This document shows positions 2,991 through 59,400 of a stretch of DNA of 64,000 nucleotides, piece by piece. The DNA comes from Branchiostoma floridae (Eukaryota; Chordata; Leptocardii; Amphioxiformes; Branchiostomatidae): NCBI RefSeq assembly GCF_000003815.2, contig NC_049996.1, forward strand, positions 5,598,012 to 5,662,011, in the 5' to 3' direction. Within the stretch, counting starts at the first letter, position 1, and every line of letters begins with the position of its first letter. Under the pieces are notes generated by a model, which was not told where the DNA came from, did not search any database, and saw only the letters and a program-made list of their open reading frames with translations. Made by a program: the position numbers and the translations under genes.

Positions 2991-3519
2991 CCCTTATACA
3001 CTACGTAGATGTTCCCTTTCTTGTCCACTGTAACATACTGAGGCAAATTCCCCTCTTTTGTTCACCCAAGCCTGCTCATATTACACGTTGTTTCAGTAGG
3101 AGTTAACCACAAGGCCTCTGCGTGCCTTCGTCTACCCGAATATCGTGTCAATGCCAGAATGACTTTGTCGGAAATCTTGTTCATGGCAATTCCATTGATA
3201 CGAAAATTCCCACTACACTTAAATTCGGCAAGGACACGTCCCTCCTTGCCTCCTTGAGTGACGGCATTTTGATAAAAATTGTCTCCATGCAAAACTACCC
3301 AAAGGGAATCGTTGCTGTCTATAGAGATGTCCTGTGGTTTCAAGTTTCTTGTGGAGAAACTGCGAAGGAAGACACCGTTCATGTTGAAGACTTGGATTCT
3401 TTTGGTTTGCACGTCAGTCACAAATATCTCGTTGGTCGAGGACGCGGTGATCCCTCCTGTAGTCGGGAACTGACCAAGTCCTTTTCCAGCCCTGCCGAAA
3501 GTTATTCTCTCTTCTATTT
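2991..3519 (-). pseudogene. NHL-repeat exon with in-frame stop
   Basis: NHL repeats are beta-propeller blades found in TRIM/brat-type and other ligand-binding proteins. On the minus strand a clear acceptor (pyrimidine-rich, ending CACCAG at 3520) opens the exon. The blades read in order: EERITFGRAGKGLGQF, TNEIFVTDVQTKRIQVF, then KPQDISIDSNDSLWVV and FRINGIAMN. A TGA at 3064-3062 interrupts, but the same frame continues as TKEGNLPQYVTVDKKGNIYV, another canonical blade, ending near 2991. The single stop inside an otherwise open blade argues for a pseudogene, a null allele or a base error. No RING or B-box exon is seen nearby. Confidence 0.75.
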
Positions 3520-3609
3520 CTGGTGGTGAAACAAAGTAAAACAAGTAGTGTGCATATAGTAGGGACCTTTTTTTAGAATCAGACTCAAATTCGAGATGAT
3601 TCCCATCTC

Positions 3610-4634
3610 AACTAGAGTTCGGCGACCTCATACCTCCATGAAAATTTAGAGCTTTCGTAAATTTCATGCAATTGACTAACACATTAACATAATTTATGCA
3701 TGGTGTTGTTCATCATTGACTAACGTACACATCTCACAATTCTAAAATTCCCATTATTAATCATAAAGCGGTTTTGCGATTTTTACATAAATTATGCAAA
3801 TAAGTTCTTCATTACCATATTTGGTATCTGCTTACATTCCACCAATCATAATTAACATGTGTTACATTTATTGAAGTCCAGTTATTAAAAACAATGGAAT
3901 TATACAATTTCCTCATTAATCATGCAAATCAATCCCTCATTTGCATAACATGTATATCATTATGGAAATCTTTGCCTAAGCTACCTGCACGCCTAAAATG
4001 CAGGCAATCCGTCGTTCCTTTCTGCAGTTATCCTCTTTGGATTGTCTTGACAAAAACGCCCCTGCAGTTCCACAATTAACTGTTAGAGGTATGAAACTTG
4101 CCCCACTTTGTCATGGCACTAAAAGCTATCTACCACCTAAATGTCAAGACCATAGCATGTCTGGAACAAGAGATACATTGAAAAAACTGCTATGATAGAA
4201 TATTCTCATTAATTATGCAAATGTACTCCTAGTAAGCATAATTAGTATTTAATCTTGTACAACATTTTCTAAGGTACCTACATACCAAAAATCATGAAAA
4301 TCCGTCGTTCCCTTCTTGAGTTATCCTCGTCAGAAGTCTTTGACAAAAATGCCCCTGCTATCCCAAAACTAGACGCTAGGGGGCCCAAAGTTACGTCATT
4401 TTTTCCTGAGCACAAGAGCTATCTAATACTTAAAAATCTTGACCATAGCATGTTCAGAACACCGAGATAGCAAAACCGGAAGTTGCGCTGCAGTACCAAG
4501 GTCACACACCAGGGGGCCCAAAATTGACCTTGACCTTCGTCTTACCAACCCCTACCTACATACCAAATATCATCGTAGTCCATCAAGAGGTTCTCAAGCT
4601 ATGATGACCACAAATGTGCGGACACACAGACACA

Positions 4635-4675
<41 letters not shown>

Positions 4676-4710
4676 AAAACTATACCTCCCTTTTTTCATG
4701 GAGGTAATGA
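3610..4710. repeat. Dispersed repeat, copy 1 (octamer-palindrome family)
   Basis: Starts AACTAGAGTTCGGCGACC and contains CCTCCATGAAAA near the left end, matched in inverse by TTTTCATGGAGG at the right end. The interior carries repeated ATTATGCAAAT and ATTTGCATAAT blocks and stretches resembling CATACCAAAAATCATG. A second copy with the same ends lies at 6573-7680. It looks like a non-autonomous element; no coding capacity seen. Confidence 0.6.
4622..4674. repeat. (CA)n microsatellite
   Basis: Uninterrupted ACACAC run near the right end of the dispersed repeat. Confidence 0.9.
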
Positions 4711-5590
4711 TGACGGTTCGCCATATTATCAACTTTGCACTTGGAATGAAGAATCTTTGTAAATACTTTTTTTACGTTTTGAAATAAGATATAGAAATCT
4801 ATATTATAAAATTGAGAATTAACGGCCAAAAAAACACAATTGTTTCCAGTGTACAATAATATATAATCTATGATTAAATTGTACCTATATCTGAAACTCT
4901 TATAGGCCCTAACGGTATCGTTTTCTCGTAACCATTAGTATATTTAGCCGTAAAACCAGAGGCCCTGGGTTAGAATCTTTTGACATGCCACCGATATTGT
5001 GAGCTCGGAAAATTCGTTCCCTCACATGCACTATTTCCGCGCTCCACCCAGGTGTAAAAAAGGTACCTGACACACGTAAAATGCTGTTATAAAATAAATA
5101 AAAGAATGGTTCGAACAACAAACAAGTGAAATTTTATCTTTAGATATTTTTAGTGTAATTTTCGGTGATATTAACAGCTCAACACTTAACAATGTAATTA
5201 TACTAGTTGCGAAATACTTTATCTTCAATCTAAGGGACAAAAGATTATTCTTAAGTCACCACATCTCATACCTTCAGTCACACTAAAACAGAACTAATTA
5301 TAGCTTCAAGAAACAACAGATTAGAGTCACACTACAATAAAGGGGGCCGATGATGCACAAATTTGATTAAAAACCATCATCTTCTTACCATCTTGCCATG
5401 TTGCCTTTTTGTGTACCGTCATTGTTGATTTTGCCTTAATTTATCTAAGTTTCCTTTTTGTGTTATCGTATGAAGTTATTGTCTGTTACTATTGTTACAT
5501 TATCTTACATTTAATCGCATCCTGTATTCAACTTCCATCCATACACATTGTATAGCTCCACTTATATTTTTTCCATTTATAACAATTCCT
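4711..5590. other. No recognisable feature
   Basis: AT-rich sequence between two repeats. Only short frames; no exon or RNA gene recognised. Confidence 0.5.
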
Positions 5591-6059
5591 TAGCCTCCAT
5601 AGCAGGCTCTCTGTGTTTTTTTGGCTCATAATACACTTGTCCACTGTCCACTGTCCACTTCTATTTGTACTGGGTCGCTGATTTCTGGCCTTTTCTGACT
5701 GTCAACCCCCAAGAGCCTGCATGGAAACGCTGCATCAAAGTGATATTAAAAAACGATTAGGGCGATTAACTAGGAGGTGCGAATTTCCTGCCTCCTAATA
5801 AACTGTACGCATCTCCACTGGACAGAGCCGTAAAATGCTTGCAGCCGACATGTGAAATGCTCCTAACGTGTGTGTTAACAGGGCAGATGAATGGATAATC
5901 GTTTTTGATATCACTTTGATGCAGCGTTTCCCTGCAGGCTCTTTGGGGTTGGCAGTCAAAAAAAGCCAGCAATCAGCGACCATTACAAATAGAAATGGCC
6001 AGCAAAAGTGTATTATGAGCCAAAAAAAAACAAAAACAGAGAGCCTGCTATGGAGGCTA
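5591..6059. repeat. Long foldback (inverted repeat) element
   Basis: Left arm (about 5591-5760) and right arm (about 5896-6059) are inverse copies. TAGCCTCCATAGCAGG pairs with CCTGCTATGGAGGCTA, and AAACGCTGCATCAAAGTG pairs with CACTTTGATGCAGCGTTT. The loop is about 130 bp. No transposase; typical foldback/MITE architecture. Confidence 0.8.
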
Positions 6060-6572
6060 ACAATTCCTAACGTTCTTGTTCGATTCATTCATTTATTATT
6101 GTTTTGAGATACATAAATCCATTTATTCATCCTGTTTTACATTATTTTGCTGTATACTTCAGTGTGTATATTTCCTATATTATTAATTTGTACACTCCAT
6201 TGTTATTTACTTTTCCGTTGGATCCGTGGTTTAAGTTTTTGCCCATGTCCTTAAGTTTTGTTCATGTGAACTGTATGTTTTACAAGTAAAATGAAAAAAA
6301 AAAAATTAGAAAAAAACGAGCACGATAACCTTTAAAATTGGTCAATAATTTGTCTGTTAGAAAGCTGTTGCCATGACAACATGAAAAAATACAGTATGAA
6401 CTTATTTTATTCACTCGAATTTCTTAACATAATTTTGTTGTAATAATTATAAGCAGATGAGAATGTTTTGTCTGTTGACTAGGTCTTGGTTTATTTTCTT
6501 ATTACTATGCCATGGTATCAACAATCTTATTCATATTGCAATTAAACATTCACAAAATTTAAAAAAATATGT
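6060..6572. other. No recognisable feature
   Basis: AT-rich stretch with a short poly(A) run near 6294-6316 and nothing that I can name. Confidence 0.45.
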
Positions 6573-7680
6573 AACTAGAGTTCGGGGACCTCATACCTCC
6601 ATGAAATATTTATTGCTTTTTTGTGGATGGTATGTATGTTTATAGTCGGTTGTATTTGATAGTAATGGTTATATAATATAAATGTTATGGGAAAGTAGTG
6701 GTGTATTTATTTAATGACACAGAGGATGTCCATCTGATTAGTAATTATCAAAATGTGACACTTGATTGTGTAATGTGCGTTTAAGAGGTCGACGGCATAT
6801 GGTAGCGTGGTGTTCCTTAAGCTTGATGTTTGGCATTTAAAATGTCTAATGGTTGTCAGCATTATTGAGGTTCGACTATGTGCCTCAGAGCTGTGTGGTG
6901 GGAGGAAGTTGGGAAACTCAGAAAGAAGAAGGGATGTGGCCAACTTTAGTCAGATGGTGATTTGATTTTCCACCAATATGTCATAACATCAGCTGTTCAC
7001 ACGGTACAAAAACGAGATGCACACTTTCCTCTGACAGCCCTACACCAACTGTAAGATGAATACTTGGCGCCAACCCCGTCTGCTAAAAACAAGTACCATT
7101 GGCTACGAAAGAGACAACTAACAACTGTCACTTATCGTAACAAAATCAGAACAAGTGTGGCGCCCATAAAACTTCTGACACCCAACCCAGATGAGAGGAC
7201 CTAATGGCATTATAATCACCATGTCACTCAAATTAGCAGTACAGTATGTGAGACATCCATACCTGTTAAGCATTATCGTTAAATGTACCTCAACTTCTTA
7301 CAATTATACTTACGCTTCACATCTCCATGATATCCAAAGCAGACATAAATAAAACTAATTATCATATTAAAAAAACTCGGGGTTCCCAAAGCAGCTGTCA
7401 CCTCACCATCTGCTTGAAGCTAAGCCCATTAACAAACACATAAAGCACGATGCCTGTACCAATATATCTCAAATATAGGGGTGATTTCTGATATTATTAC
7501 ATCAATTATTACGACAGATACGGCTCCCAAAATCTCATCGATTCGAGCTTTTATCACACTCCACCAACACAACGAGTATGAAACCAATCCATCCAGCCGT
7601 TCTTGAGTAATCATCTACACAGACAGAGACACATAACAGAAAATATAACCTCCATTCCATGACATTTCATGGAGGTAATG
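6573..7680. repeat. Dispersed repeat, copy 2
   Basis: Begins AACTAGAGTTCGGGGACC with CCTCCATGAAAT and ends ATTTCATGGAGGTAATG, matching the ends of 3610-4710. The interior has diverged and lacks a coding frame. Confidence 0.6.
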
Positions 7681-9816: not shown

Positions 9817-12800
9817 GTGAGTTAATGATTTTGCTTTTACCGTTGGCAAATTGTTTGGGAATACGTCATGTACATCTTTTGTAACAATTTGTTTATTTGG
9901 TACTGTATATAGAGATTATTCAGGAAGAATATCCGCTGTGTTATGTCGAGAGTATACCTAGTCTTTGACAACAGTCCAATACATAATGCATGTAAACGTC
10001 AACCGAGACAATACTTTAAACCCTATCCATACTGGGTTTTTATGGCATTCCCTGTACTGGGGGTGGGCTCATTCGCCACCCTCCCTTCGTATTTTCAAAG
10101 CGACTTACTGTACGATCACCCAATTTGCAGGGGGTAATATGCTCGTCAAGTTTTATAATTTCTAAATTTTTCATATCATTATGACGTAATATGACGTACT
10201 TATTACGTCATTAATTGGCTAAAACCGGGAATTCCAATAATATCTAAATATTTCACACAAAAAGGTACCAATAAATGTTTCTTATTAATATTTAAGTGTT
10301 ATAAGACCTGTTGTCAAAAGGCGACGCAACGACGTCAAAAATTAATAAAATGACGTCATCTGTAGTTTTGCTCTCCGCCATCATGGATTATCAACCTTAA
10401 ATGTCTTAAGATACACTTTTTAAAACATATAGCGCTTAAACCCTATGAAAATGGATTGAAAATGTTCACATGAATGTTTTCTGTAAGAAAATACCAGGTA
10501 ATGATGAAATCCGGTTATACTTTTCATCATGATATTGTCGGCCGTCTTGGATTTTGACGAATTACGTGATCTCATTAGCATAATTTATGAATATTTAATC
10601 ATAAATGTTCAACTAAGATATTTTAGATATTAAAGATATATGAAAAGAAGTTTAGTTTAGCAAGAAAATCTTAATTAAAATTTCATTGTTTAAACCCAAA
10701 TTAGTGATTTTTTAAAAATTTGCCTTTCAGAAACCCGTTGCCATGGCAACACGAAAAATTATAAACTTACTTTATTTTCTGTAAATTTTTGCCAACAATG
10801 TTCCAGGAAAAGTCACTAAGTTTGGTTGTTCTAGCACAAGCCGTTTGGGAGCTATACGACTTCAAAGTCGGCGCGGGAACTTATACAATACACACACACA
10901 CAGAGTCTGGATAGGGTTGAATAGAGTAGATGTTTATACAATAGAGTCGTTCACCATTCTGAATAGACGTGCAGTGGCACGAATGGTTTCAGGTATGTGT
11001 CAAAGGTGAAGAAGTCCCCGGGACATTAAAATGCCATAATATTGTTATGCAAATCGAACCAAGAGTCAGGGAAGAGCTGTTTACAAGCCAGGGCCTTTAC
11101 CTTTGACATATTATCCACATAGCCTGCATCTACACATAACAAACCTACCTTAAATACCGTAACGGGGGGGGGGGGGTCTAAGGACTGAACTTTCTTGTGC
11201 TTGGGATAATGTCTTAAAATAATTGGTGGTTTTATTGATATATACACATAAATATATTGTTAATTATTTATTCCTTTTTAGTAACATTTTCACTTTGCTT
11301 GAATGTATTATAGGACCTTTGTCAGTTACCTTATTGTTTATTTAGAACATTATTTAGAACACCTCAATAGTTACCTGTGTTGTTTATTTTAGAACACCAT
11401 AGCTGTTACCTGTTTTGTTTATTTAGAACATAAGAATTATTCCTTGTTCCGAAAAACTGTACAACTTCATTTTCAATTCACCGATGAAGAACGGTGAACA
11501 CCGTTCGAAACGTCTAATTAAAATTTGATAATTACCCAGAAGTATAGACTGAATCATCTTCAATTTAATGTATCCTTGATGACTAATCTTCACAAGGAAA
11601 CAAACCTACTCGGAACAGTGAACGTACTTATATGTCTAGCCCCTCCTTGGTTGATAAAACTGCTTTATTTTCAACGATATGCGTTGCTAAGAGTAAAGAA
11701 AATTATATTGAAAAAAAGCTACTAAAAAAGCTATTTCAACATTTTTAGTTGTTACATTTCTTACAATGTTACATTCTTATGAGGGCCTCGACGACGGGGA
11801 AAGAGCCATGATGATGATGATATTCTTATTACATCATTTCATTCATTTCGCCGTTATGATATTGCCTTAGTTATCAATTATTGAACTATTATCATTTCCT
11901 TCCATTTTGTTAATTGATATACTTTTTTCGGTTACATTATTGTCTAATGTATAATTTTTACACATCTATCCAATCTTTATTCAGCTTATTAATTATTAAA
12001 TTGTATCATCATTTCTTATTTTGGAGGAAGACTAAGTATAAGCCAGGAGGCTTTTCTCTTCCCCCCTGCATGTACTTTCATCCGTTAATTTGTTTTATGT
12101 TATCTTTTTTAAAGGTTGTGCAAAATAAATGAAAAAAAAAAAAAAAATCAAGCGTTAGTTTTCCAAGTGCGATTGCAATGGGTGATCCTATGGGGATATC
12201 TCGAACATGTTTTTCGGACGAAAATTCGAAGAAGAGCGATTTAGACAAGAATTGAACAACATGTTCACGATCTTTAATACTTTTGACAGTCTGTTGGTGT
12301 CAGCACACAACATTTCCTTTTTTTTTTCAATAGTACAGTATCCCTGATATACACTAGCGTGGTGGGTCCATGTGCTCTACTGGTTCACCATTTCGACCAG
12401 GACTTGGTCCTTGCGGCACAGACCACTGTTTTGAGGTAAGAGTATTACAGAACAACTGCAACATACGTCAAGTAGTTCATTTGGCTAAACCATTCCAGTA
12501 ATGCAGACGATAATCTAGTAAATCTTCATTTGAAAGTGCCCACGACACAGAAATGCAGCGTTTTATTATTATATCAAAATGATAATATCGTTTATCTCTA
12601 TCTAGACCGGGGGAGGGAATTAATATTGCTAAGTTAAACGCCAACTTTGACGTCGTATAACTACATAACGACACATGATAGGACTGCCAAACTTGAATAT
12701 TTTTAACATTTAGCTGGAAACAACTAGAAAGGCCGACATTTGCTTGAGACCAAATACAGCATATTTCAGCCATCTCCCTCCACATGCAACAACAAAATCA

Positions 12801-15800
12801 CCCATTTGAAAAATCACTTTTACTACTGACGGTTCAACCCAAAAATGAATCTTACAAAATCCTCCTGTGAAAGAATGGACTCCAGTACACCCTATGTGAA
12901 TTTGCACAATAGACTAGTGCAGAAATACTCCCATTGCAAAATTGGCCATTCCATGTGTCAAATTTCAAGTCATTCGGTCCAGGAACGACGGAGATGAATC
13001 GCTTTGAAGATTTAACAGGAAAGGGAAAGAAGAAAGAAAGAAGAAACATTACGAATACAATACCATACCTATGGTTGGCTGAAAAAATATAATAGTATCG
13101 TTTAACCCCATCTAGACCTATGGAGGGAATATATTTTGCTCACACAAACTTTGACGTCGTAAAACTGCTTAACGACATATGTCAGGACTGCCAAAGTTAA
13201 TTAATTTTCCTAACATTTAGCTGGAAAAATAATAAAGTAACTCGGTCATTTTTCGTCTTTCGTCATCTCGGGATTTCTAAAAGGTAAATCTTAATCAATT
13301 AAAAAATTTTGATTGAAACAATGTGTTTTCAACATTGTATTGCTGAGCTACACTTGATTTTGCATATTATTAGTATTTCATATACTTTTTGGGACATTAA
13401 TGATTTAAGACTCACAAATGATGCTTATTCGATGCCATCATTGGTCAAAATCCAAGATGGTGGGCGAATGTATAACCAGTTTTAACTGGAATTTCGTCAC
13501 TACCTCATCAATTTTACGAAAAGCATTCGTTTCGACTTTTTAGTCCCTTTTCAGTGAATTTTTGGGTTATATGTAGGAAAAAGTATTTTTTTTCAATCAA
13601 GACTGCCAGTCCAAGATGGTAGATATATGGCGTCATTTTCTGACGTCATTATTACGTCAATGTGGTTGCAGAAATCTTGACAGACTCAAATATCAAGAAC
13701 CGGGTGCATGACTTGATCTTACACAGCACGAAATCTGGTATTTAAGCAAGCTTAAACTCAACGTAAACGCGACGTTTCTGCACCCTTTCCGCAACTTAAC
13801 GACATCTATCCGCGAACGTAAAGATCCCCTTTAATGTTACCTTTACGTTGGCACTTATATGTACTTATATGCACTCCTCACGTGCCTTTCCGCAACTATT
13901 AGACGCTTAAAGGCGTCGTTAATGACAGTTTTTCGTAACCTATACGGGAGGAAAGTATGCGTTTATTAAGACCTTTCTGCACCCTTTCCGCAACTTAACG
14001 ACATCTATCCGTGAACGTAAAGATTCCCTTTAATGCACTTATATGTACGTTTCGGCACTCCTTCACGTGCCTTTCCGCAACTATTAGACGCTTAAAGGCG
14101 TCGTTAATGACAGTTTTTCGTAACCTATACGGGCGGAAAGCACGCGTTTCTTAAGACCTTTCCGTGATCTTTTGACCACATTTACAGTCGATTTCCGTCA
14201 CGATTTCCCCACGTTTATGTGTCGTTTACACACCCTGAAAGGCACGCGAAGAAGTGCAGAAACGTACTTATCCGAACGCTTTCCGTGATCTTTCCTTGGA
14301 CTATAGTTGTCATTTATTTTTAGTAAAGGCGGCGTAAGTTTAAACCTTTCCGCATCTTTAGGTAGGCTTTATGTGTTTTGTGTGGCTTAAATTGGAACTT
14401 TTGCATCGGGTATGCGTGTCTTATTTGGTATGAATCATACCTACACCGGTATCTATGGCTTTGCCGTCTAAACTATCTTGTGAGTCCAATTGTGGACTTG
14501 GATTGGTCGACCGAGGGAACAATCGGTGTACAATATCCATGCACGAATCTCCGCTACATTTAAGTCCACAATTTGGAGTCCAGTGTCGGGCGATACGCCT
14601 GGAAAGACATCATTTCAAGCAGCATAGTTCCATCTGGCCATCACATTAGGAAAAATCCGCTGAGATTCCCGAAGACGGGTACTGTTTTGTGATGAACAGG
14701 CCGTGCTCTCCATATCTCCGCCAGCTTATGCTGGTCAAGATGACACAGTCTTGAATTCACCCTGAGTTGTGCCCCTTTGAAGACTCTCCAACATACTCCG
14801 TTTCTGGCAAGCCTTGAGTGTCCTATGGTTATGTCCGTTCCGTCCTGTAGTTCCGTTCGAATCCATTTGCGGCAAAGCCACGCCGATAATCCGTGTGTTG
14901 AAACGGATCCAAGGCTCCTTCTTGACTTGTCCCGAAACAGACGCCCTGCAAACTGGTTTCTTCTATAAATTATGGTATATTCGTTAGGTTTAAAAAACCC
15001 ACCTTTGTCTGTCATTGGATAACGCCCTATCACATGACTGGCCTCTTCTGGGAGCTGCTAATTAGAAATTCAATGCCGCGTTGTTCGTTATTCATAGTTG
15101 ACGGCGAATAAATTTGAATTTGAAAAACACCATCCCCTTTGTACGCTGTTTAGCCAATGTTAAGCTAAACACAACTGTTACCACACTAGAAAATACCAGC
15201 CTTTCTGGGAGAACGTGATTATTGCTTGTAGATAATAAATGTTCTTCCAGATGATAAGAAAGTTTTTTTGTACAATTATATAAACAGCAAACCCGCTATA
15301 TTCCCATGATACGTTACCGCGTAGTGAGGACGCTATGTCGTCGGGATGCCAAGCTGCAAGGCACAGCCACCCGCGAGCGACATACTGCACAGGCCGCCCA
15401 GTACTAGTCCTCTTACCCTGAACGGGAACATGCCGTAATTATGACCACCAATCTTCGGGGGCATGTACCCAGTCCTCCCGGCGACTGTTGTTTCCTTTCA
15501 ACAAGGAGGTTAAATATTTAATTTCCTTGCTTTCAACGCTACCTCTCCAACATCTTTTTCTGTAACTATCAATCTCCACCTCTGTAAAGAAAGTTCAGAG
15601 AGTTTTCTGAAAAGTAAGCTCAAAGGCAAAGGTAACGGAACGATATCGGTAACATACGATACTACTGGAAAAAGTAAACGCTACCTTTCCGACATCTTTC
15701 TTGCACCTGTACATAGCATCTTTTTGTGTAAAGTGAGCTCAATGGTAACGTTGTGTAAATTGAGCTCAATGGTAACGTAAAGACATTGGAAAGATACCAT

Positions 15801-18800
15801 ATGTTCCATGAGGATATTTTGATTTTCCTGGTTTCGTCAAACACGCTAACACAGAATGAATTATTCAGGCGAGGTCGCTACTTTAGTGAGAGGCGCATGT
15901 GGTATATTGAGTGGAAAATACTCGTAATTTGGTAAAAGCAATGCCTCTTTTAAGAATAATAATTAACGCTACCTTTCCGTTTGCACCTATACATTCCAAA
16001 AATTGTATCTGCTATATGTAAGTTTTAACCAGGAGCAAATGTTGCTTATCTTGGTTAAACTCAACACGTTAACACAGCAGGGGCTATTCAGGCGAAGCTG
16101 CTGCGTTATTGAGGGCGCATGTGGTATATTGAGCGGAAAATAATGCCTCTTCTTCAAATAATGATTAACGCTACCTTTCCGACATCTTTTTTCCACCTAT
16201 ACATAAAAGGGGGGAGGTTTGCTTAAACCTCCCCCCTTTTATGTAAAGTCAGCTCAAATGTAACGGAAAGACATCGGAAAGATTGTATCTTTATATGTAG
16301 CTTTCACACAGGACGAGATTTACTTTTCTTGGTTAAACTTAACACGCAAACACAGCAGGAGCTATTCATTTGAAGCCGCTGCTTTAGTAAGCGACGCATG
16401 TGGTATATTGAGCGGAAAATACTCTTAATTTGGTAAAAGTAATGCCTCTTCTTCAAGTAATGATTAACGCTACTTTTCCGACACCTTTTTTCCACCTATA
16501 CATAAAAGGGGGGAGGTTTGCTTAAACCTCCCCCCTTTTATGTAAAGTCAGCTCAAATGTAACGGAAAGACATCGGAAAGATTGTATCTTTATATGTAGC
16601 TTTCACACAGGACGAGATTTACTTTTCTTGGTTAAACTTAACACGCAAACACAGCAGGAGCTATTCATTTGAAGCCGCTGCTTTAGTAAGCGACGCATGT
16701 GGTATATTGAGCGGAAAATACTCTTAATTTGGTAAAAGTAATGCCTCTTCTTCAAGTAATGATTAACGCTACTTTTCCGACACCTTTTTTCCACCTATAC
16801 ATAAAAGGGGGGAGGTTTGCTTAAACCTCCCCCCTTTTATGTAAAGTCAGCTCAAATGTAACGGAAAGACATTGGAAAGATTGTATCTGTTATATGTAAC
16901 TTTCACAAAGGAGATTTGCTTTTCTTGGTTAGCAAACACTATTCATTTGAAGCCGCTGCTTAAGTGAACGGCACATGTGGTATATTGAGCGGAAAATACT
17001 CTTAATTTGGAAAAAGCAATGCCTCTTCTTCAAGTAATGATTAACGCTACCTTTCCGACATCTTTTTTCCGCCTATACATAAAAGGGGGGAGGTTTGCTT
17101 AAACCTCCCCCCTTTTATGTAAAGTCAGCTCAAATGTAACGGAAAGATATCGGAAAGATTGTATCTGTTATATGTAGCTTTCACACAGGATATTTACTTT
17201 TCTTGGTTAAACTAAACACGCAAACACAGCAGGAGCTATTCATTTGAAGCCGCTGCTTTATTGAACGGCGCATGTGGTATATTGAGCGGAAAATACTCTT
17301 AATTTGGTAAAAGCAATGCCTCTTCTTAGAAATAAACGCTACCATACCTATACATAAAAGGGGGAGGTCTCCATAGACCTATACTGATAAGAGTATGTAA
17401 AATGAGATCAATTGTAACGGAAGGGCAATGAAAATATATCATCTCCTATTGGTAATTTCCACCTTAGAGAACCACGAAAATAAAAAAAAGGCGAAGGTTA
17501 ACTGATTGTATGTGAACGTATGGTCGGTTCAAAGCCTGTAGATGTTTTCTGTACATAAGCAATACCCGTTTCATATACGGCGCATATAAGGATGCTTAAA
17601 GGTTATGTAAAGATATTACATGTATTTAATCTGCCTTAACGAATACGGAAAGGTTACGGAAATGTAAAACCATGGTTTCCGTGGTCTTTACGATACCGTA
17701 AACTCTGCGGAAATATTTTCCCACCTTTAGGCTACATTTAAGTATCTCGGAAAGTATGCTTAAATATTCGTTTTCGTGCTGTGAGGGATGCCACTAGTCT
17801 TCAACTGTGACCTCTCTGTCAGTAATTTTTCCCCTCAGGATACCTCAGAATGCACCATTTTAAAATTCTCTAAAACTCAGAACCATGGAAGGTCATTGCC
17901 CCCGACCCCCTGCAATACTCGTGTTTGTAGCGTTCGCTGCATGGTGAATCTCAGTCACTAAGAAATTTGGACCCCTATAATAAAGTCCTAGCTAAAAGCC
18001 TGTACAAGAGTGAAGACTGGGATTCTACAGTCCTGAAGCTGCCTTCTATCTTTACTAATGGCGGTATGCAGGATAAAAGGACACTTACTTGATCTAATGC
18101 TATATGTAATCTTCTTCAATGTTTAGGTTTATTCATAAAGATGGAACACATTCTTCTATTACAACCCCTGCACACCATTCAAAAAGGGAGATTCATCTGG
18201 AGAAANNNNNNNNNNNNNNNNNNNNNNNNNNNNNNNNNNNNNNNNNNNNNNNNNNNNNNNNNNNNNNNNNNNNNNNNNNNNNNNNNNNNNNNNNNNNNNN
18301 NNNNNGAACTTCTCACAGGGATGAAATACAGACTGTTTTGGAGGTCAAACTTTACTTGCTTCACCTCAGAGGATGATTAATGATCATTGTTATGATTATT
18401 TTTTAACCCTGTTCAGACGAGGGGGGGGGGGCTTTGAGGCCTGCGCCAACTTTGATGTCCTATAACGCCAGAACGGCTAACGCTAGAGCCACCAAATTTG
18501 ATGAGTTTTCCTAAAATATTGTTGGCAACAATTTTCAAAGTTTGACAAATTTTCCATTTTTTCTTGTTGCCATGAATTGCCGTTTGCTGACAGGCAGTTT
18601 TGCCCCAAATCACTATTTTTGGTTCTAACAATGTATTTTTCACATTTATTTGCTATATTACTGCTATTTTGTTACATAAATAAAATCTTATATTATTTAG
18701 CATATCTTTCAAAATTATATATGCATAAATTATGCTAATTTGATGACGTCATCAGCCCAAAATCCAACATGGCGGACCGTATGACCAGATCAAGAATAAC

Positions 18801-32714: not shown

Positions 32715-33245
32715 GCTCCCTGTCAGTCTCTTTCCTTGTCTGTCTGGCTCCCTGTCTGAAAGCCTCCCCGTCTGTTTGGTTCCCTATCTGTCGCTCTCCC
32801 TGTCAGTCTGTCTCCCTATCTGTCGCTCTCCCTGTCAGTCTGTCTCCCTGTCTGTCTGTCTCCCTGTCTGTCTGGCTCTCTGTCTGTCTCTTTCCCTGTC
32901 TCTCCAGCTCCCTGTATGAATTCCTCCACGTCTGACTGGCTTCCTGTCTGTCTATCTCCCTGTCTGTCTGGCTCCCTGTCTGCATGGCTCCATGTCTGTC
33001 TCACCCCCACTCTGTCTGGCTCCCTGTCTGTATGACTCCCCGTCTATCTGGCTCCCTGCCTGTCTCTCTCCCTGTATGTGTCGCTCCCTGTCTGTCTGTG
33101 TCTCCCTGTCTGTCTGGTTCCCTGTCTGTCTGGCTCCCTGTCTGTATGCATCCCTGTCTGTATGCCTCCCTGTCTGTCTGGCTCCCTGTCTGTATGCCTC
33201 CCCGTCGGGTCTACCGAAAGTGCGAAAAGGAACGAAGTATGAAGC
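32715..33245. repeat. CTGTCTGTCTGGCTCC minisatellite A with linker
   Basis: Degenerate 16-bp and 4-bp units over about 500 bp. It ends in a linker (33213-33245) that is the inverse of the linker preceding array B. Long open frames here are repeat artefacts. Confidence 0.9.
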
Positions 33246-35012: not shown

Positions 35013-36060
35013 ACCGTCCCCGTCTGTCTGGCTCCCTGTCTGTGTCTCTCCCTATCTGTCTGGCTCCCTGTCTGTATGCCTCCCCGTCTGTCTGGATCCC
35101 TGTCTGCCTCTCTCCCTGTCTGTATGCCTCTCCGTCTGTCTGGCTTCCTGTCAGTTTCTCTCCCTGTCTGTCAGGCTCCCTGTCTGTCTGGCTCCCAGTC
35201 TGTCTCTCTCCCTGTCTGTCTAGCTCCCTGTCTGTCTCCATCCCTGTCTGTCTCTCTCCCTGTCTGTCTCTCTCCCTGTCTGTCTCCATCCCTGTCTGTT
35301 TCCATCCCGGTCTGTTTCCATCCCTGTCTGTCTCTCTCTCTCTGTATGTCTGGCTCCCTGCCTATCTGTCTCCCTGTCTGTCTGACTCCCTGTCTTTCTG
35401 GCTACCTGTCTGTATGGCTCCCTGTCTGTCTCACTCCCTCTCTGTATGGCTTTCTGTCTGTATGCCTCCCCGTCTGTTTGGCTCCCTGTCTGTCTCTCTC
35501 CCTGCCTGTTTGGCTCCCTGTAAGTATGCCTCCCCGTCTGTCTGTCTCCCTGTCTGTCTGTCTCCCTGTCCGTCTGGCTCCCCGTCTGTCTGGCTCCCTG
35601 TATGTCTGGCTCCCCGTCTGTCTACCTCCCTGTTTGTCTCTCTCTCTCTCTGTCGGTCTGGCTCCCTGTCTTTCTGGCCCCCCGTCTGTCTGGCTCCATG
35701 TCTGTCTCTCTCTCTGTCTGTCTGGCTCCCTGTCTGGCTGGCTCCCTCTCTGTATGCCTCCCCGTCCGTCTATCTCCCTGTCTGCCTCTCTCCTTGTCTG
35801 TCTCTTTTCCTGTCTGTCTGTCTCACCGTCTGTCTGGCTCCCCATCTGTCTGCCCCCCTGTCTGTCTCTCTCCCTGTCTGTCTGGCTCCCTGTCTGTATG
35901 CCTCCGATTCTGCCTGGGTCCCTGTCTGTCTGGCTCCCTGTCTGTATGCCTCCGATTCAGTCTGGGTCCCTGTCTGTCTGTGTCCCTGTCTGTCTTGCTC
36001 CCTGTCTGTATGCCTCCTCATCTGTCTGGCTCCCTGTCCTTTGTTACTCTCTCTCTCTCT
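35013..36060. repeat. CTGTCTGTCTGGCTCC minisatellite B
   Basis: About 1 kb of degenerate units (CTGTCTGTCTGGCTCC, CTGTCTGTATGCCTCC and similar). The lack of stop codons in the unit leaves long open frames on both strands; these are not genes. Confidence 0.95.
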
Positions 36061-37658: not shown

Positions 37659-38143
37659 TTTTTTTTTTTTTTACTCAATGGTCACCACGTAACAAGGCCT
37701 GAAGGCCACTCAAGGTTACGGGTTACATGATTGGAACTGTAACAGCAACTCTTCGCCCTAGGTCAGAAACATCATGATTGAGACCAGCCCAATTGCTCAC
37801 TATGAGTGAGGACTAACTGACCCAATAGGCGAAGCAGGGGTTACGAGGGCTGCTCGGGAGATTCCCTACCCCTATTTTGGTCGGAATGGTTTGGTCCGCT
37901 CAGGTGGATGTTCGCACATGTGGCGGGTTCTTTAACGTGCATAGGGTATGGCTCTCCCCATACATGGGACCTCCATTTAACGTCCTATCCGAGGGACGAC
38001 TCATTTTTCACTTGAGTAAAGTGAGGAAAGTCGTGTAAAGTGCCTTTCCCAAGGGCACAAGACCGGCAACACGGCAGGCGGATTCGAACCGGCGACCTCT
38101 CGGTCACGGGCCGAATACACTACCACTGTGCTACGCGGCCCCA
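37659..38143 (-). mobile_element. tRNA-derived SINE in lectin intron
   Basis: Head at 38143: GCGTAGCACAGTGGTAGTG (A box) and GGTTCGAATCC (B box). The body includes AAAGGCACTTTACACGAC, and a poly(A) tail appears as a T run at 37659-37672. Relatives at 46592-47125 and 49085-49291, all minus strand. Confidence 0.88.
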
Positions 38144-56420: not shown

Positions 56421-59400
56421 GTTAAGGTGGCATGGCACTCATGAAGACCCTACAAATGTGTAGACAGTTCGTATGGACAGTTTATGGACAGTTCATCATG
56501 GAAGACTTATGGAAGACGTAAATATTTTCGGAATAAATGAGGACCGCTTAGGAGCGCGACTTTAGTCATTCTAAGCAGCGCTAAAGCATACCAAGAAGGC
56601 AAATTGCTTGTGTGATAGCAAAGGACAAATAACAAGAAGAGTTTATTTGAGCGCTCCTGAAATTAGTTCAGTAACCTATCTTAAGTCAGGCGTTGTCAGG
56701 TACATTGTATTCAGCGAAAAGTTGAAACACGTCAAAGTGAACAAGGCCGCAGGACCGGACGGTCTTTCCAACAGAATCATCAAGTGCTTTGCCTATGAGA
56801 TTTCTACACCAGTAACGTCCATATTGAATGCCTCACTATCGGAGGGGGTCGTTCCAGAACAATGGCGACAGGCAAATATCATACCACTACCTAAAACGCG
56901 ACCGCCGTCGATCAGCGAACTTTGACCCATATCCCTGACACCTACCCTAGCAAAAGTAGCGGAAACTTTCATCTCGAAACATCTGTACTCTGACATCAAG
57001 CACAGCATTGACCCAAACCAGTTTGGTTGCATACCAGGTCGTTCTACGACACACTGCCTCGTTGATTTAATTGACCAACTGGCTAGAACAGCAGATAAGA
57101 GGGAGACAATAACAACGCTGATAACTACGGATTTTGCCAAGGCGTTCGACCTTGTGGACCACAGCATAGCCGTTTCAAGCCTACTCGGAGCAGGTCTACG
57201 CAGCTCGCTCGCCAAATGGGTATGCTCGTTCCTGTCCACTAGAAAGCAGAGAGTGATGTACAAGGGAACGTATTCAGATTGGAGGGAGACGACCTGTGGC
57301 CTACCACAAGGAACAGTGTTAGGCCCCTTAATCTTCCTTGCTCTAATCAACAGTGCAAGTGAGGATTCCCTTGCTAGGAGGTGGAAGTTCGTGGATGATC
57401 TTAACTTAGCTGAGAGCAGGTTGATCCGGGACACCTCAACAATTCAAACGGACCTCAACAGCCTCGACCAATGGGCATCCACAAGAAAGATGAAACTTCA
57501 CCCCAAAAAATGCAAAGCCATGCACGTGGTCTTTACGAGAACAGTCCTTCCACTGCCACCCCTGTCTATTGCTGGCCAACCGTTAGAGGAGGTCAAGATA
57601 GTTAAACTCCTCGGCTTGTTCATCCAGGCTGACCTTGGTTGGAACGTACATGTAGACCACATTGTCAAACAAGGCAACCGAAAGCTATTTATGCTTAAAC
57701 AACTCAACCAGTTCGATCTGTCTAGGGATGACTTACTTACCTGCTACAAAACATTCGTCCGTCCAAGCTGTGAGTACGCAGCGCCTGCCTGGCATCCTGG
57801 ACTAACTGCTAGACAGCGACGAAGGATCGAATTCATCCAGAAACGCGCATGTCGGATAATACTCCGCTCTGCCTACACTTCATACCCAGAGGCGTGCCGG
57901 ATTCTGAACTTGTCTACCCTAGATCAGAGGAGAGACCACCTCTGCCTGCAGTTCGCCCAGAAACTCCTCCAGTCACCGGACTTCCGTCACTGGCTACCAC
58001 AAACCCGGGGGGCTATCACTGGGAGAGCCACAAGGGCCAGCAACCAACTAGACACTGTCAAACCCAGAACTGAGCGCTACAAAAAAAGTGCAATCCCATA
58101 TATGATATGCCTGCTGAACAAAAATAATGGAAATTAATGTTAAGAATGCAACTGTATATTATCTATTGTATATATGTAACGTTTTTTTTATGATTTTATT
58201 GTATTTGTAGCACAGAGGTGCTGTACAGCAAGGCCGTAATTCAACCTCTGGTTGCCAGTGTCTTGTTTTTATTCTGAATAAACCAATTGATTGATTGATT
58301 GATTGATTGATTGATAGGCTTAGATATACGATTGATTGATTTAAACAGAGGATACTTTGAGAGTTTAGGAGAAGGTCGAACGCTTTTCAATGCGCTTGGG
58401 GCTAATGGTACATAATAGTATAATGTGAAGTAGTATACATTGATTACCTAAAATTAATAAGTCAAGTTTGGGTACCATCCGATTTCTACCGGGCTTCTTG
58501 TACTCACTGCCCTAAAAATCGAATTTTAAGGCAGCGAGTAAAAGGGGCCCCGTTGAAAATCGGATGGTTAAATAACAATTCCCTCTGGAGTGGAATGCTC
58601 CATCTTCTTTTAATGCTCCTTTTGTAAGCTTACCTCAGTTGTTGAAGAGATTCATCAGTCACGTATGTAAACAGTTAATAGAATTTTTTATTCAAACATT
58701 GACTAGTTTTGACAGGTAAGCAAACATACCTCCAAATTTTCGATGACTGTCAGTCCATCATGATCGCGGAGTGACCTAGTTCTCGCGAGAGTTGCGAGAA
58801 CTAGGTCAAGACTTCGCAAGGAGGCGGGGGTGAGGGGCAGAAAATCCCCGCAAGTCTCCACCTAGTTCTCGCAACTCTCGCGACAACTAGGTCACTCCGT
58901 GATCATGATGGACTGACAGTCATCGAAAATTTGGAGGTATGCTTGCTTACCTGTCAGAACTAGTCATTGACATTGTTTGAAGAAAAAAGTCTATTACGTC
59001 AAGTGGCATGCGGACAACTTTTACGGCAAATCGGATACTGTTGTACAGACTGTAGGTGCTGTGCTCAGAACACTTCGGTTGGCCAGTACTTCCCTGTACA
59101 AATAAAATATCAAAAAAGTCTATTTTGTCTGTAATCAGAAGCTAGATATAATATTTTAACATTGCTTTGATAAATGAAACACAACGTTCTGCAATTTTAT
59201 GATGAAGACATCGAATGCCTTTCTTTAATAAGTTTCTTTTAATAATTGATAGAACTTCAGAACTTTATTGCGCGACAATTGTAGCAGGTACAATGTATGG
59301 CAATCTGAATATACATTGGAGTTGAACTATATACTATTGCAAATATCTAACAACTAATCTAATCTAATGTAACAATATAAACAATCTAGTTAATATCATA

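Follow-up and report, generated by a model that had tools for sequence, protein, structure and literature searches.

A probable non-autonomous CACTA transposon with 11-bp-phased subterminal motifs and a tandem array of hairpin units

CACTA (EnSpm) elements, well studied in plants and less so in animals, are DNA transposons mobilised by a tnp2-type transposase, which cleaves at the CAC ends and makes 3-bp staggered insertions. CAC..GTG ends with 3-bp target duplications are marks of EnSpm elements, placed in a clade with 2–5-bp duplications (PMC12730594), and in CACTA elements direct and inverted subterminal repeats follow one another at short distances (PMC8978399). The closest layout is that of soybean Tgmt* (PMC2613891), a 20.5-kb element that encodes a tnp2 transposase and in which a 17-bp motif with a 7-bp part, TTGGCAG, gives 12 stem-loops in one border and 2 in the other. 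Here we describe a 4.06-kb element at positions 13722–17783 of a 64-kb window, the whole stretch of DNA that was analysed (C18:5598012–5662011 of a 513-Mb assembly, probably that of a lancelet). It is very probably a non-autonomous CACTA (EnSpm) DNA transposon, an assignment made because its ends read CAC..GTG and its family shows 3-bp duplications. The initial annotation of the window knew of no named family with such a layout; this is not borne out, since CAC..GTG ends and 3-bp duplications go together in CACTA elements with reiterated direct and inverted motifs near the ends that fold into stem-loops (PMC2613891, PMC12730594).

Like Tgmt*, the window family shows a 3-bp duplication, a reiterated direct and inverted subterminal motif, asymmetric borders and, in its coding relative, a tnp2-type transposase frame. 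It differs in ending with CACAG (or CACGG) instead of CACTA, in its motif, CTTTCCG, and in a measured 11-bp phasing; its stem-loops lie in a 300-bp tandem array with perfect hairpins of up to 21 bp, and its host is probably an animal. In maize Spm/En the subterminal repeats are bound by a second element-encoded protein, TNPA, and are required in cis (PMC2613891). The Spm/En motif is of 12 bp and hairpin units go unmentioned in the accessible part of that paper, whereas in the window family a TNPA role would be assigned by comparison. The CACTA-like Jozin elements of Chenopodium resemble the window family in having a satellite array near the 3′ end (PMC8978399). However, the Jozin satellite is described as captured, with a similar 171-bp monomer found in C. 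sosnowskyi without a CACTA link, whereas the array of the window family is made of the element's own motif clusters and its units are a constant feature of the profiled copies. Outside the CACTA group, Tetris of Drosophila virilis (PMC4079207) and Galileo (PMC3573991) likewise have a variable number of ∼210–220-bp tandem units within their ends, for which extra transposase sites have been proposed as the reason.

In the open-access literature, as far as its accessible portions extend and with Repbase outside its scope, no animal CACTA family combining a tandem hairpin-unit array with a measured 11-bp phasing was found; it may well already have a family name in Repbase. The kind of element is known and its transposition mechanism ordinary, the elaborate layout of its ends being what is unusual. 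A single genome here holds many non-coding copies, a coding relative and a sister family whose ends are similar but lack CTTTCCG. This allows one to ask which features of a CACTA end are fixed (CAC and perhaps the 11-bp pitch) and which, such as the motif and the hairpin, drift, and suggests a route from a transposon end to a satellite-like array.

The element is a single unit with inverted ends. Both ends carry CACAGCACGAAA, at 13722–13733 on the forward strand and at 17772–17783 on the reverse strand, with no further exact copies in the window, giving the CAC..GTG termini of CACTA elements. The terminal inverted repeats (TIRs; Table 1) are of 32 bp, with the outermost 12 exact; when the 60-bp ends were shuffled 10,000 times, their score was reached once. 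The 12-bp match alone proves little, because about one inverted pair of this length is expected by chance anywhere in this 4.5 kb (shuffle mean 1.04); confined to two 100-bp end windows, such a pair arose in 3 of 5000 shuffles. The observation of the initial annotation and its reading as a TIR element hold.

Across the genome there are 329 occurrences of the end word CACAGCACGAAA and 24 of its reversed control. Among the 263 of the 329 places whose positions are known, neighbours less than 12 kb apart form 35 facing pairs and 1 pair in another orientation, and 28 of the 35 span 3.1–4.7 kb. The first 15 copies were picked by facing exact end words, so that their exact ends are no test of conservation. 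What this selection did not ensure is that, of the 4062 bases of the window element, each of the 15 matches no fewer than 4013. They lie on 6 contigs with differing flanking bases, and their longest matches show 80–96% identity, ∼92–96% in a near group and ∼80–84% in a farther one (L015, L017, L019 and L022). Copies lacking the array had been named beforehand as a finding that would reduce the element to a chance association; each of the 15 profiled copies has hairpin-type units, 1 to 5 per copy (profile score at least 79), four of them (L018, L019, L021 and L022) with no unbroken stem of at least 15 bp of the window hairpin left. Target duplications, for which a search had also been suggested, are present as exact 3-bp repeats in 15 of 17 copies, namely 13 of the first 15 together with L047, a family copy with a 2193-N gap, and L048; in L026, two of the three bases agree. 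L034 and L036 resemble duplicated segments bearing the left family end only, and L046 has an end with 1 mismatch 6 kb off; these three lie outside all duplication counts, as do L029, L031, L035, L038, L039, L041 and L044. With L047, L048 and the eight sister elements described below, these ten loci make up a set of 20.

No transposase is recognised in the window copy, and none of the frames tested in its middle region matches a Pfam family above the cut-off. A 138-amino-acid (aa) frame of the middle region was rejected as a gene, having no Pfam match and shifting frame between copies as judged by eye. Two longer copies were likewise rejected as coding versions: L019 (7.4 kb) contains a nested reverse-transcriptase element (RVT_1), and L022 (5.0 kb) an unrelated 2-kb insert (3159–5156) with a 34-bp perfect palindrome.

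A transposase is found in a coding relative. A profile search with PF02992 (Transposase_21) gave 28 places in the genome and none in 14 control genomes, and one of these, C6:26143367, stands 6.6 kb inward from the end word at C6:26150547. This locus, L049, holds an 892-aa open frame that matches Transposase_21 with an E value of 3.2e-18 (a DUF4218 match of the same frame, E 0.0029, is below the cut-off). Its right end is that of the family (75 of 79 terminal bases), and a hairpin unit of 308 bp is repeated 3.4 times in it, with three full units. The 1 kb preceding L049 shows no left end. The right flank begins with TGA, which predicts the left end TGACACNGCACGAA, a sequence with 13 places in 513 Mb, 9 of them forward, against 5 for the reversed control. 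The place at C6:26131244 is the sole correctly oriented match within 20 kb upstream, where by our arithmetic a forward one would be met by chance with a probability of ∼3.5e-4. We infer a single 19.3-kb element, C6:26131247–26150558, between TGA duplications, in which a tnp2-type transposase stands with these ends, the left one known by place only.

Between the transposase and the hairpin array, L049 also contains a protein-kinase frame (5757–7061, reverse strand; PF00069, E 3.8e-21), which could be a captured host gene, a second element gene or a nested insertion. It is not a known binding protein, and no candidate for a protein that binds the CTTTCCG motif was found. Three further Transposase_21 frames, each of 884 aa and 70.5 bits (C5:21353424, C13:1223407 and C19:6373362), belong to another family, which may have moved recently.

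The ends of the window element are distinguished by the density and spacing of CTTTCCG and its complement CGGAAAG. The element holds 21 of the 28 exact occurrences in the window and, with one mismatch allowed, 51 of 205, against 13 expected. The motif mostly faces inward: exact sites number 7 forward and 1 reverse on the left and 2 reverse on the right, and sites with up to one mismatch 13 forward and 5 reverse on the left and 4 reverse and 2 forward on the right. Direct and inverted subterminal motifs of the CACTA kind are thereby found at both ends. Their 11-bp spacing, one helical turn, was absent from the initial annotation. After removal of duplicate units, leaving 32 sites, a distance of exactly 11 bp is seen in 7 pairs, where jittered positions predict 0.47 and 0 of 5000 trials give as many; 2 of the 7 pairs belong to related units. 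Outside the element, the 154 sites give no pair at 11 bp and many at 9, 10, 20 and 30 bp, which we take to come from other tandem repeats. The base autocorrelation of the left region (13722–14368) peaks at lag 11, with a value of 0.371 (shuffles 0.257, standard deviation 0.018; 0 of 1000 as high). The right region (17431–17783) has the same value at lag 11 (0 of 1000 shuffles), lag 51 being slightly higher at 0.381, and the middle region (14400–15500) shows no 11-bp signal. In the array units, phasing depends on adjacent CGGAAAG pairs. The left subterminal region also holds a 185–199-bp direct duplication whose duplicates are 95–96% alike. Viral contigs gave no match for the hairpin and none for the two-part end; 5 of them match the triple 11-bp CTTTCCG pattern.

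A sister family shares this pitch. Among 18 loci fetched around unpaired end words, 8 are sister elements (L030, L032, L033, L037, L040, L042, L043 and L045) of 3.8–4.7 kb each, with CACAGCACGAAA at one end and CACGGCACGAAA at the other (the second end with at most one mismatch), and with exact 3-bp target duplications in all eight. One of their ends, over ∼110 bp, matches the window family at 76–77% in 8 of 8, and the opposite end, over 113 bp, at 69% in 5 of 8. CTTTCCG/CGGAAAG occurs 0 or 1 time per sister locus. In the four sister elements tested, lag 11 again ranks in the top three at either end (reached by 0–14 of 500 shuffles), these four phased copies being related to one another and not independent events. 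Because the sister ends are phased nearly without CTTTCCG, the pitch is common to both families and the motif is not. Tandem Repeats Finder (TRF) reports arrays of 115 and 141 bp in L032, and the 141-bp array of the sister family peaks at 22 and 11 bp.

The element most likely works in the following way. Transposase supplied in trans by coding relatives would cut at the CAC..GTG termini and, as the duplications suggest, insert with 3-bp staggers. A companion protein encoded by the element, with the part that TNPA plays in Spm/En, would probably bind the CTTTCCG/CGGAAAG sites at their 11-bp spacing and pair both ends. Among the functions that the initial annotation had offered for the motifs, putative transposase-related binding sites fit best. 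The 300-bp hairpin units would be tandem duplications of one site cluster, their number growing and shrinking through unequal exchange or replication slippage. More site clusters may make for stronger ends and so favour array growth, as has been proposed for Galileo and Tetris. A broader proposal is that the 11-bp site pitch acts as a helical ruler conserved in the clan, that the motif is swapped together with its binding protein, and that cluster amplification strengthens the ends; we put it forward tentatively, as a possibility with the balance somewhat against it.

By TRF, the array has a period of 299 and 4.1 copies (16137–17327). The initial annotation described a perfect 20-bp stem in every unit; the stem is in fact of 21 bp, with a GCTT loop, and is perfect in four of the seven aligned repeats (units 1–4 in Table 1). 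It is lacking in the repeats that start at 15670 and 15959, and the last (17331) is degenerate. The described bracket of CTTTCCG and CGGAAAG holds in part: of the four hairpin units, two have an exact CTTTCCG on the left and two have TTTTCCG instead. A pair of CGGAAAG sites at a distance of 11 bp is present in three of the four, the second site being TGGAAAG in the remaining unit. Two units are indeed identical, within an exact run of 388 bp.

That these hairpins are the functional core of the element, either by extruding as cruciforms or by giving rise to small RNAs that regulate or silence it, is the rival explanation that survives best, and we consider it unlikely. Across the 15 copies and the window, 49 units score at least 79; 37 full hairpin units were scored for decay (few gaps, GGTTTG present; partial units and variants such as L019_5958 excluded). 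An unbroken 21-bp stem persists in 16 of the 37, the window's four included, as counted on the plain sequence; L021_3193, L023_3528 and L023_3826 carry an extra base, and ignoring insertions the count is 19. Two window units fold with z values of -8.5 and -9.2. The stem substitutes less per base (0.012–0.017) than the flanking motifs (0.038–0.042), so that some constraint, or repair between the arms, may act on it. Against such a role, the stem substitutions in these units comprise 22 one-sided and 0 compensatory changes, an absence that is weak evidence because the changes are so few. Several units have lost one arm, the unbroken stem has gone from the four copies mentioned above, and all three full units of the coding relative share one stem mismatch. 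Stems of at least 10 bp with a loop of at most 8 are absent from seven of the eight sister elements, the eighth having an AT-rich 17-bp stem. The suggestion that the hairpins are small-RNA precursors found no support in Rfam, where the best score is 30.8 against a gathering score of 82 and no curated microRNA family exceeds its threshold. The hairpin structure is not visibly maintained. Given its loss or breakage in many units and its mismatch in the coding relative, the hairpin is most likely a by-product that travels with the unit. The left half contains small, weaker fold-backs that the initial annotation did not list (z of -3.6 at 14065–14145 and -1.4 at 13880–13960).

A foldback-like element of the kind represented by FB, Galileo, Tetris and Tm1, with long composite inverted repeats built of tandem units and a P or Mutator transposase, is a very improbable reading. 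It would account for tandem units of variable number in a TIR element, with possible satellite-like growth as in Tetris and Galileo, and for composite ends with a repeated motif as in Tm1. However, Tetris and Galileo have long TIRs and 7–10-bp duplications, Galileo belonging to the P superfamily and the Tetris transposase not having been found (PMC4079207, PMC3573991). Here the inverted ends extend over only 32 bp, the array is one-sided and the left half has no long inverted copy of it, the target duplications are of 3 bp, and the coding relative has a tnp2 transposase.

Hardly credible is an accident, in which a satellite happens to lie between unrelated repeats or the assembly is at fault. 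It draws on the window copy, which has no target duplication, on a 100-N gap that starts 423 bp to the right of the element, and on the 388-bp exact internal repeat, which could be an assembly duplication. The near-complete match of all 15 copies, in differing flanks, refutes it for the element as a whole; the unit number of the window copy is less certain. A Helitron, which has neither TIR nor target duplication, is dismissed by the presence of both.

Several observations weigh against the CACTA reading or its parts. The flanks of the window copy disagree (TTA and AGG), with no agreeing stretch of 3–12 bp even when one mismatch is allowed, and L028 also lacks a target duplication. Galileo copies with mismatched flanks have been interpreted as chimeras (PMC3573991), and by analogy the window copy may be chimeric too, which would explain its flanks. 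End words are not all copies of the window family: 8 sampled loci comprise 1 family copy, 3 sister elements, 1 locus sharing 58 bp and 3 unmatched ones. Of the 28 PF02992 places, only 1 is found inward of a known end word, and two further ones within 20 kb of such a word lie on its outer side. The coding relative was read except for ∼8.7 kb (26131258–26139999), which bears on its integrity, its left subterminal region and its standing as one element. Within a single array unit, lag 11 is not significant overall (73 of 1000 shuffles). The lower substitution rate of the stem weighs against the reading of the hairpin as a by-product.

Table 1. Features of the 4.06-kb element, in positions of the window
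Feature	Coordinates	Strand	Basis or remark
Left terminal inverted repeat, starts CACAGCACGAAA	13722..13753	+	26/32 inverted match to right end; terminal bases near-identical in fetched copies
Left subterminal region, phased at 11 bp, with CTTTCCG sites chiefly in forward orientation	13771..14368	+	lag-11 autocorrelation
Middle region (1.1 kb), no motif, phasing or recognised coding capacity	14369..15510	.	matched in other copies
Two unit-like repeats without perfect hairpin	15535..15797	+	repeat alignment
Partial unit without hairpin	15959..16142	+	repeat alignment
Hairpin unit 1, stem 16200–16245, between CTTTCCG and two CGGAAAG 11 bp apart	16165..16285	+	
Hairpin unit 2, stem 16499–16544; 388-bp exact run at lag 299	16464..16584	+	
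Hairpin unit 3, stem 16798–16843	16763..16883	+	
Hairpin unit 4, stem 17076–17121	17041..17161	+	
Last, degenerate unit, imperfect hairpin	17331..17450	+	relatives in other copies
Right subterminal region, phased at 11 bp, with CGGAAAG sites (inward-facing CTTTCCG as seen from the right end)	17431..17751	-	autocorrelation 17431–17783
Right terminal inverted repeat, ends TTTCGTGCTGTG	17752..17783	-	26/32 match to left end

The element is flanked on each side by a dispersed repeat in the same orientation, of which the window holds three diverged copies (10415–10868, 13148–13584 and 18440–18777). Elsewhere in the window, two long open frames on the reverse strand (11–1498 and 1575–2462), one with a DUF7869 match below the cut-off (E 0.0015), show transposase-like features by eye and perhaps belong to another mobile element. 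They are followed by an NHL-repeat frame (3065–3607, reverse strand; PF01436). A reverse transcriptase frame at 56926–58134 on the forward strand (RVT_1, E 5.5e-25) is likely that of a long interspersed nuclear element (LINE). The sole Rfam match above its gathering score in the window is a tRNA-like sequence at 38069–38140 on the reverse strand (35.8 bits), which adjoins dispersed repeats and may be a tRNA-derived short interspersed nuclear element (SINE). Minisatellites of 16 bp, of the CTCCCTGTCTGTCTGT type, occupy 32716–33206 and 35017–36038 with 31 and 64 copies, and the long open frames within them probably result from repetition only.

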